A stretch of DNA of 36,714 nt, from NCBI GenBank assembly GCA_001563805.1, contig LKMK01000003.1:1-36714 (forward strand), read 5' to 3'. A model generated the notes under the pieces. It saw nothing but the letters and a program-made list of their open reading frames with translations, did no database searches and was not told the origin of the DNA. Source of the stretch: Natrialbaceae archaeon B1-Br10_E2g2. GTDB taxonomy: Archaea > Halobacteriota > Halobacteria > Halobacteriales > Natrialbaceae. A program made the position numbers and the translations under genes. The stretch's first letter is position 1; each line of letters begins with the position of its first letter. Below are positions 29,695-33,804 of the stretch, one piece after another.

Positions 29695-31191
<1,497 letters not shown>

Positions 31192-31765
31192 ATCCGTAGA
31201 GGCTTTCGTTCTCGGGACGGAGGGCTCGAGCTGGTGGGACTCATTGACACCCGGTTGTTGATTCCACAGTTGGGGAGACGGCATACCCCTCATATGGGCC
31301 CGTTCTGCGATGAACAATTCTCATATATGTCACGGAATATCGAAGGAGCTGTCGATATGGTGACTAGTGCTGCCACCCTGCGCGGGGAACGACGGGCCTC
31401 AGTTCGAACCCATCGATCGGGATCGTCTATAGGACCCAGGACCGGCGTTCGCGTCGAATACGAGGTCCGGCACCGACGGACCCGATGGAAAGCGGGGCGA
31501 GGCTCGTTTAGCTCACCAATAATGCACATGAGCCTGTCCGGGTCCTTCGAAACCGCACGATCTGCCTGGCGGAACACTACACCAGTCGGCTTCCGTGTTG
31601 TGGAATCGACACATAGGACCTCTATGAGGTAACTGTCCATGAAATTGTCAGTAGTGGGTCGACGGTCGTTGCCTGATCGGCCCCCGAACGCCGTGCTACG
31701 AGACTGGGCCTCGAGAAGTCCCCTCGCTGGGTACAGGCCCAATCCTGCCGACGGTTCGAGATTCG

Positions 31766-31784
31766 ATATCGTATAATACGATAT
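31766..31784. promoter_or_regulatory. Perfect 19-base palindrome beside an AT-rich promoter-like box
   Basis: ATATCGTAT-A-ATACGATAT has perfect 9-base arms around one base. ATATAATATA directly follows and could be a TATA box. No coding gene starts within the usual distance, so it could drive a non-coding RNA or be left over from a lost gene. Confidence 0.5.
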
Positions 31785-32080
31785 AATATAAGAGTGAAAG
31801 ACGTCGTCGACGCTCTACCGCGACGACCGTCTGCTGCTGGCAGTCGCTGGATCGACGGCGCGGTGGTTCGGACCGCTCAGCCGCTGGGTGTTCGTGATGG
31901 GCTACCCCGCTGTCGTTGCCGGTCTCCGACGGCCCCGTCCTCGTCAAAAAAAGGACGTCGCAAACGGGAACGAACTCTCCGTCCCGTCGGCGATTCAACG
32001 CCGAACTGTCGCTCGCAACTCGGTCGAGTACGATGCCGTGGTGGGCGATCCCCCCTCACCCCTGAGGCCGGCATCTACAA

Positions 32081-32238
32081 TATAGTAACAACTGCAACGA
32101 TTTACACACTGATCGCCGAACCGTCTGGCGATCAGGTGTGCAATGACTTGCAGTGGCTACTATAACAACTGCACCGATTCATATGCTGATCGCCGATTCG
32201 TCTGGCGACCACGTATGTAATGACGCACAGTGGCGACT
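32081..32238. repeat. Tandem pair of long hairpin-forming repeats
   Basis: Two copies with a 77-base period. Each contains CTGATCGCC, a 9-base loop (GAACCGTCT or GATTCGTCT), then GGCGATCAG or GGCGACCAC. In copy one the inner stem is a perfect 9 pairs (32109-32117 with 32127-32135) and extends past a one-base bulge. In copy two the sequence has changed but pairing is largely kept. The arms continue with imperfect symmetry to the ACTGCA/TGCAGT ends, so each unit is one long imperfect hairpin. No gene overlaps it. It may be a structured RNA element, a MITE-like unit or a protein-binding site. Confidence 0.75.
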
Positions 32239-32471
32239 GTAGGCGTGGGTTCGAGAACGGGACCGGTCGTTCAGCGGGATCGCGACTGGAACGCTCCCGA
32301 CTGCAGCGATCTCTCCGTCCAAACCCATGCAAAGGACTGTCGTGGGATCTCCCCTCTCGGCACGATTACGTGCCGACCGACCGTCGCCACAAGCGGACGC
32401 GATTCACAGCCCCGCGTCGGGCTCGAGGCTACCGTGACCACGATGCCGACTTCGATTCCGGCCCAATCCCG

Positions 32472-32480
32472 TGTTTATAT
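32472..32480 (+). promoter_or_regulatory. TATA box of the LarA-like gene
   Basis: TGTTTATAT lies about 26-34 bases before the ATG at 32506, as expected for leaderless transcription, and decides that start over upstream alternatives. Confidence 0.6.
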
Positions 32481-32505
32481 ACGTCGGGCATCGATACGTC
32501 GTCGT

Positions 32506-33804
32506 ATGGAGTTCCCAACCGCGGACGATCTCGAGGCCCTGATCGATCCGCCCACCTATCCGTCGGTGGCGTCGGTCCGGTACGACCCCGAGACCGAGAC
32601 GCTCGAGGACCCCCTCGCCGAGACCCGAGCGGAGCTCGACCACCTCCCGATCTCTCGGCTTGAGCCGGGGGCGACGGTGGCCGTCGGGGTCGGGAGCCGG
32701 GGCATCCACGGCATCGACGAGATCGTCGCCGAGACGGTCGCGTTTCTCGACGACCGCGGTTTCGAGCCCGTCCTGGTGCCGGCGATGGGGAGCCACGGCG
32801 GTGCGACGGCCGCGGGACAACTCGAGATCCTCGAGACCCTCGGTATCACGGACGAACGCGTCGGGGCGCCGATCGACGCGCGGATGGACGCCGATCCCGT
32901 CGGCGAGGTCGACGTCGGCGAGACGACGACCCCGGTGTACGTCGCTCGCGCCGCCCTCGAGGCCGACGCCGTCATGGCCATCAACCGGGTGAAACCACAC
33001 ACGAACTTCACGGGGCGACTCGAGAGCGGCCTCTGCAAGATGCTCACGGTCGGACTGGGAAAACAGCGGGGCGCCCAGGCCTTTCACTCGACGGCGCTCG
33101 CGGAGGGGTACGTCCCGACGATCGAGGCGATGATCGAGGCCGTCAGGGAGTCCGTGCCACTGCTCGGCGGGCTCGCGCTCGTGGAGAACTTCCACGAGGA
33201 AACGGGGATCGTCGAGGGGATTCCGGGCGAGTCGCTCGAGGAGCGAGAGCCGGCCCTGCTCGAGGTCGCCCGCGAGGAGATGGCGACGCTGCCGTTCGAC
33301 GACCTCGATCTGCTCGTCGTCGACGAACTCGGCAAAGAGATCTCCGGCGCGGGGATGGACACCAACGTGATCGGACGGTATCGCGTCCTGAACGCGCCCG
33401 ATCCGGAGACGCCGGCGATCGACCTGATCTACGCCCGCGGGCTCACCGAGGGGACGAAGGGCAACGGCAACGGCATCGGCCTGGCCGACATCACGCGACG
33501 GGCGGCCCTCGACCAGCTCGACCTCCAGAAGACGTACGCCAACGCCCTGACGAGCGGTTCGTTAGCCAAGGCGAAACTCCCGCCCGTTGCCCCGACCGAC
33601 GAACTGGCGCTGAGAGTCGCCCTGAACGCGCTGGGCGGCTACGACCCCGAGACCGTCCGTCTCGCGTGGATCGAGAACACTACCGATCTCGCCGAGTTCC
33701 GGGTCTCCGAAGCGCTGCTCGAGTCGCTTCCGGCCGAAGCGACCGTCCTCGAGCGCGAACGGCTCGCGTTCGACGACGGAACCGCGACGTTCGAGTCACT
33801 CTAA
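32506..33804 (+). CDS. LarA-like nickel-pincer racemase domain protein (DUF2088 family)
   Basis: A 432-residue homologue of lactate racemase LarA, the enzyme that carries the nickel-pincer nucleotide cofactor. Positions equivalent to the LarA His, His, Lys, His set are visible: H97 (MGSHGGAT), H165 (VKPHTNF), K178 (LCKML) and H194 (AFHS). The 16-residue spacing of the last two equals that in LarA (K184, H200). Sequence around them (SHGG instead of the LarA THRP type) shows it belongs to a divergent subgroup acting on another 2-hydroxy acid, or on an unrelated substrate. No larB, larC or larE is encoded here, so the cofactor would have to come from elsewhere. It begins after a TATA box and is not obviously in an operon. 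Confidence 0.88.
   Translation: MEFPTADDLEALIDPPTYPSVASVRYDPETETLEDPLAETRAELDHLPISRLEPGATVAVGVGSRGIHGIDEIVAETVAFLDDRGFEPVLVPAMGSHGGATAAGQLEILETLGITDERVGAPIDARMDADPVGEVDVGETTTPVYVARAALEADAVMAINRVKPHTNFTGRLESGLCKMLTVGLGKQRGAQAFHSTALAEGYVPTIEAMIEAVRESVPLLGGLALVENFHEETGIVEGIPGESLEEREPALLEVAREEMATLPFDDLDLLVVDELGKEISGAGMDTNVIGRYRVLNAPDPETPAIDLIYARGLTEGTKGNGNGIGLADITRRAALDQLDLQKTYANALTSGSLAKAKLPPVAPTDELALRVALNALGGYDPETVRLAWIENTTDLAEFRVSEALLESLPAEATVLERERLAFDDGTATFESL

Follow-up and report, generated by a model that had tools for sequence, protein, structure and literature searches.

Insertion at a TA dinucleotide that is duplicated in the process is established behaviour of the IS630/Tc1-mariner group of transposable elements, and in experimental transposition of the IS630 family the target was likewise a TA that became duplicated (PMC2170065); IS630 itself prefers CTAG according to Tenzen and Ohtsubo (1991) as cited in PMC2170065. 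The MITEs of this group found in bacteria and eukaryotes are short, carry no gene, have inverted ends, duplicate the TA and occupy intergenic positions in many copies. MITEs are known from Sulfolobus, Halobacterium and Haloquadratum among others, in a review in which IS630 goes unmentioned (PMC10969869). In Haloquadratum three transposase-free classes have been distinguished, namely MITEs, PATEs and SMRs (PMC3119063). The SMRs were reported to lack a target duplication and to have ends unlike those of any transposon (PMC3119063). PATEs (PMC3119063), together with REP/REPIN, are palindromic and dispersed, have neither inverted terminal repeats nor a target duplication, and are tied to IS200/IS605.

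In this study we analysed a stretch of 36,714 nucleotides from Natrialbaceae archaeon B1-Br10_E2g2 (the window), in which the first-pass annotation had described two related hairpin units 77 nt apart in a gene-free region of 1.3 kb. Both observations were confirmed: the second repeat stretch lies 77 nt from the first and is 79% identical to it, and the region corresponds to the intergenic gap listed in Table 1. However, the length of the unit is not 77 bases as had been proposed but 84 nt, consisting of an 80-bp near-palindrome and flanking TA duplications, and the value of 77 arises from the nesting of one copy in another. The unit shares with the bacterial and eukaryotic MITEs of the IS630/Tc1-mariner group all the features named above, but differs from them in being haloarchaeal, in that almost all of its 80 bp form a single dyad, and in having only a candidate helper.

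Table 1. Proposed features of the composite locus and its surroundings in the window.
Feature	Position	Strand	Basis or remark
Composite locus	32075..32242	.	C32075 and G32242 are the target bases around the outer MITE; sequence, length arithmetic, empty sites
Reconstructed empty target of the outer MITE, GCATC-TA-GGCG (CTAG)			CTAG target known from empty sites
Left tip of the outer (old) MITE, TACAA, columns 1-5	32076..32080	+	Severed by the inner insertion; 5 + TA + 77 nt give exactly 84 columns
Left TA of the inner MITE's target duplication (columns 6-7 of the outer copy)	32081..32082	.	Empty sites, length arithmetic
Inner (young) MITE, 80 bp, TAGTAACAACTG...CAGTGGCTACTA	32083..32162	+	29/29 Watson-Crick pairs
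Right TA of the inner MITE's target duplication	32163..32164	.	Empty sites, length arithmetic
Remainder of the outer degraded MITE, columns 8-84	32165..32241	+	TA at its end, then G32242
Intergenic region	31192..32505	.	Aldehyde dehydrogenase gene on one side, DUF362-domain gene on the other
Aldehyde dehydrogenase gene	29695-31191	+	Upstream flank of the intergenic region
DUF362-domain gene	32506-33804	+	Downstream flank of the intergenic region

The limits of the element were read from empty sites. To find these, sister genomes were searched with the flanking sequences of ten Natrialba aegyptia and N. taiwanensis copies, and the stretches that matched were aligned. Three clean empty sites were obtained between N. 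aegyptia and N. taiwanensis (GCCGA-CTAG-CTGTG, GACAG-CTAG-CGCGG and CGAA-CTAG-AAGCA), the filled counterparts of which read C-TA-[TAGTAR...YTACTA, 80 bp]-TA-G, and two further empty sites, AACCAGCC and AACCTAGCC, agreed with one base changed. Among 105 full copies the element was preceded by C in 71 and followed by G in 86, with both bases present in 62. The clean empty/filled pairs and the C/G flanks imply that the element comprises 80 bp, that it inserts into CTAG and that the TA is duplicated. The terminal inverted repeats read TAGTAAC... and ...GYTACTA, and the 29 paired columns were 92% Watson-Crick in 98 copies. Since insertion into CTAG with duplication of the TA is the signature of IS630/Tc1-mariner elements, the unit is very probably a non-autonomous element, a MITE, of this kind that inserts at TA/CTAG. 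An IS630-family DDE transposase provided in trans would bind both inverted ends, excise the element and join it to a TA. One insertion (L110:2288-2371 and L126) was common to N. aegyptia and N. taiwanensis and most of the others tested occurred in a single species, which implies that the insertions are of mixed age; N. hulunbeirensis and N. chahannaoensis were too divergent for an exact junction to be defined.

In the host's own genome, a 2.87-Mb draft that is 78% complete, the unit was found at at least 35 places, mostly at a length of 84 nt and with many copies 96-99% identical; the family consensus is TATAGTAACAACTGCAACGAKTTACACACTGATCGCCGAACCGTCTGGCGATCAGGTGTGCAMTGACTTGCAGTGGCTACTATA. Relatives in the host's family carried up to at least about 30 copies each. 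The first-pass annotation had proposed a search with a covariance model, many dispersed copies being expected of a mobile repeat, and this was the outcome, as matches occurred in 94 of 242 sampled genomes of the haloarchaeal class and in 30 of 73 genera. The carriers include Natrialba, Natronorubrum, Natronococcus, Halobiforma, Natronobiforma and Natrinema, and copies were also located on plasmids of Haloarcula, Halomicrobium and Halostella. The phage records and viral contigs searched held no copy of the unit; an aldehyde-dehydrogenase query of the viral contigs gave no match and was uninformative. Strings of the MITE sequence appeared in no open PMC paper. A haloarchaeal MITE family of IS630 type is thus widespread, belonging to an already known kind of mobile DNA and new as a family, though ISfinder may list it.

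Both units had been thought to keep their folding. This was true of the inner copy, which gave -38.3 and -45.0 kcal/mol on the two strands (z -7.3 and -10.7 against shuffles), whereas the second stretch, as first delimited, was no more stable than shuffled sequence (z -1.3 and -0.8). When rejoined as an 84-mer the outer copy folded marginally (z -1.6 on the + strand and -3.0 on the - strand, base-shuffled), and 20 of its 29 pairs were Watson-Crick, with 2 G.T, 5 A.C and 2 others, so that a loss of pairing, initially named as an argument against selection on structure, is seen in part, in the window's second copy. The exchange of C32107-G32138 for T32184-A32215 in the second copy (columns 27/58) was verified; it is one of three compensated pairs (with 3/82 and 17/68) among the 12 that differ between the inner and outer copies, the other nine being uncompensated. 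The two window copies alone therefore prove little about compensation, but across the family the covariation is real. In 29 copies from the host's genome we counted 20 double-change cells against 6.0 ± 2.0 in shuffled data (0 of 500 shuffles), and in 98 copies 126 such cells against a shuffled mean of 47 and maximum of 59, kinship between copies being left in for both comparisons. The covarying changes are mostly subfamily differences, as at columns 15/70 (C-G in 49, A-T in 37) and 37/47 (C-G in 51, A-T in 32). Certain mismatches were kept in 80-97% of the 98 copies (A.C at 8/77, A.G at 10/75, C.C at 18/67 and A.C at 24/61); they span the subfamilies and distinguish the two ends and strands of the element. 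The internal loop, with G.A/A.G at 19/66 and 20/65, might be taken for a kink-turn, but this was rejected, as there is no 3-nt bulge and the columns vary between subfamilies.

The genomic context was assessed in 115 sequences (the window, stretches of the host's genome, named loci and annotated plasmid stretches) with a total of 826,701 bases and 143 copies. Genes were called by codon usage; on a test stretch that shared sequence with its own training genes, the caller found 20 of the 22 genes annotated there. After 19 copies at sequence edges had been left out, 124 were classified under a 40-base rule by which small gene overlaps count as intergenic. None of the 124 was genic, while approximately 78-81% of positions were; one plasmid copy, counted as intergenic, runs 33 bases into the 3' end of an annotated gene. 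CTAG is scarce in these loci (395 occurrences against approximately 2,821 expected from base composition, or about 14%), and 188 of the 395 sites are genic. The presence of so many genic CTAG sites beside the absence of genic copies suggests that harmful insertions were lost, beyond the effect of target choice alone. Same-direction, convergent and divergent gaps held 62, 31 and 31 copies, which is close to their shares of gap length (48, 22 and 29%), and within same-direction gaps the copies lay nearer to the upstream stop than to the downstream start in a ratio of 45:17, compared with 38:40 for intergenic CTAG sites.

It is conceivable, but in our view unlikely, that the MITE also has a host function, as a DNA hairpin or cruciform binding site or as a 3'-end signal recruited in many genera. 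The conserved mismatches and the frequent position behind a stop would then reflect that function, and the element would persist in genomes without a detectable IS630 transposase. The alternative that the repeat is a structured RNA (a small RNA, a 3'-UTR hairpin or a bidirectional terminator) under selection for RNA pairing is less probable still. The strong hairpin formed by young copies, the significant family-wide covariation and the proximity of same-direction copies to the upstream stop could all be cited in its favour; however, the loss of insertions near promoters explains the last of these equally well. RNA selection acting on one strand would favour G.U over A.C on that strand, but the non-Watson-Crick cells of the + strand in the 98 copies were evenly divided (G.T 66, A.C 78; distinct kinds 24 and 28), and thus no RNA-level signature is present. 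Moreover, the copies were randomly oriented relative to genes (29:33), their convergent share was 25% against 22% expected, sites were present or absent between sister species, and a search of the window with Rfam 15 returned no family at the gathering score. A search of the window for tRNAs likewise found none, and the reading frames in the gap at 31192-32505 contained no Pfam domain above the cut-off. The suggestion that the hairpins are an RNA element, for which a single conserved locus, not seen here, would have spoken, thus found no support. Given the absence of a strand bias between G.T and A.C, the dyad symmetry is best read as a property of the DNA, reflecting either like ends for the transposase or the correction of palindromes by template switching. 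Symmetry would be maintained by the need for the same binding site at both ends, or by template-switch repair, and RNA folding would play no part in keeping it.

The unit also recalls the SMRs of Haloquadratum, which have inverted ends, are not flanked by a target duplication and lack a known transposase. SMR-A and SMR-B of Haloquadratum walsbyi are similar to it in size (80-110 bp), inverted ends, lack of a gene, high copy number and haloarchaeal host (PMC3119063). However, the TA duplication seen at the empty sites contradicts the definition of an SMR, and the TAGTAR ends of the unit are common to an IS630-family element, so that we regard membership of the SMR class as very improbable. A TA duplication is easily missed beside elements that themselves end in TA, and for this reason the SMRs might deserve a second look.

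With the unit taken as a MITE of the IS630/Tc1-mariner kind, the arrangement in the window can be resolved. The inner copy matched the family consensus at 82 of 84 positions, TA flanks counted, while the whole outer copy matched it at 64 of 84. Removal of the inner 80 bases and one TA (82 nt) left 32076-32080, TA and 32165-32241, which add up to exactly 84 columns of the family, and this rejoined copy begins after C32075 and stops before G32242. Judged by length and sequence, the pair is a nested insertion, in which the TA that forms bases 6-7 of an old copy was entered by a young one and no tandem duplication took place. That the outer copy has exactly 84 columns and sits in a CTAG site once the inner copy is removed implies that the old copy came first and the young insertion later, and the nesting accounts for the 77-nt spacing without a duplication. 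Tandem duplication of a single hairpin unit, which the spacing and the 79% identity might suggest, has hardly any probability, as the inner copy is nearly identical to dispersed copies whereas the outer one is not, and as nesting, unlike duplication, predicts that exactly 84 columns in a CTAG site remain once 82 nt are removed. The relatives examined could not be aligned up to the insertion, and no empty counterpart of the locus was found among them.

Under the weakest alternative, a TnpA of the IS200/IS605 type would recognise the hairpin in single-stranded DNA, as with PATEs or REP/REPIN, which the unit resembles in being a dispersed palindrome without transposase. This would suit the imperfect hairpin and the conserved mismatches that tell its strands apart, but elements of this type leave no target duplication and have no inverted ends, and the occurrence of both here, with the TA duplicated at three independent sites, makes it extremely improbable. 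Thus, of the original proposal of a hairpin-recognised mobile unit, mobility was borne out by the copy number in the host's genome, the spread over 30 genera and the precise empty sites, whereas the use of CTAG sites and the duplicated TA suggest that a DDE transposase acts on the ends in double-stranded form rather than on the hairpin.

Several copies depart from the standard form. In some, 35-95 nt are inserted in the apical loop (L051:4840-4975, L064:7514-7634, L094:6320-6455 and L092:7518-7673, and further L053:3102-3220, L053:4197-4375, L041 and L042); these inserts often hold a second palindrome of the form CGCGGTTC...GAACCGCG, and the MITE arms are mostly still paired. The copy at L071:494-577 has a family-like inner hairpin, with the outer arms swapped for an unrelated complementary pair, CGTCGCTCTTGT / ACAAGCGCGACG, and is perhaps another subfamily with different ends. 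At junctions of identical repeat ends the letter N was observed (L070:6629-6802, L074:7855-8000, L130, L160 and L174). The drafts were apparently joined there, so that apparent tandem copies are probably artefacts; L070 and L074 each seemed to hold a 90-nt tandem array, but with an N at the junction this was rejected as a probable scaffolding artefact at the repeat.

As to the helper, DDE_3 (PF13358) transposases were searched in relatives, and close homologues of one of them were then searched in MITE-rich genomes. Several MITE-bearing genomes contained an IS630-family element that is 1,055 bp long and includes reading frames of the HTH and DDE_3 types. Its ends read C-TA-TAGTAACCGTTAGAA and C-TA-TAGTAGNCGTTAGAAATAATTGCTCAC and its context C-TA-[TAGTAR...YTACTA]-TA-G, so that it has the terminal TAGTAR and the C-TA/TA-G flanks in common with the MITE; the terminal 6-8 nt are identical, and the subterminal CGTTAGAA is absent from the MITE. 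A profile of its right end (90 bases) matched 83 of 98 MITEs (median 3.6, top 12.1 bits) compared with 15 of 490 decoys in which the ends were kept and the cores shuffled (top 4.3 bits); as members of a single family the 83 matched copies do not count as independent, which makes this moderate evidence. The left-end profile gave no signal in the MITEs, and pairwise alignment of the ends of the insertion sequence and the MITE beyond base 6 was not significant. No DDE_3 match was found in the host's draft genome or in 20 of 48 other MITE-bearing genomes, and none of the transposase loci examined held an autonomous element that carried the MITE ends over their full 40 nt. On these comparisons the 1,055-bp group is the best available helper candidate, and one that we somewhat favour; the TA/CTAG transposition chemistry is well supported, the identity of the helper is not. 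In locus L183 an IS630-family element abuts a MITE cut at approximately column 21. A 75-nt repeat at L134:1095-1169 and L147:1316-1390, 100% identical between the two, lies near two copies of another IS630-family element, which has the ends TATAGTGATG and belongs to a genome of the same genus.

These results explain a covarying hairpin that might otherwise be mis-filed as an RNA gene. Covariation within a dispersed palindrome is by itself no evidence for RNA, and the strand-bias test separates the two. The mobile-element family can now be annotated across Natrialbaceae, Haloarculaceae and other haloarchaea, and gene-less haloarchaeal repeats are tied to a specific transposition chemistry, that of TA/CTAG, a link that may aid the re-examination of the SMRs, the mobilisation of which was termed enigmatic.
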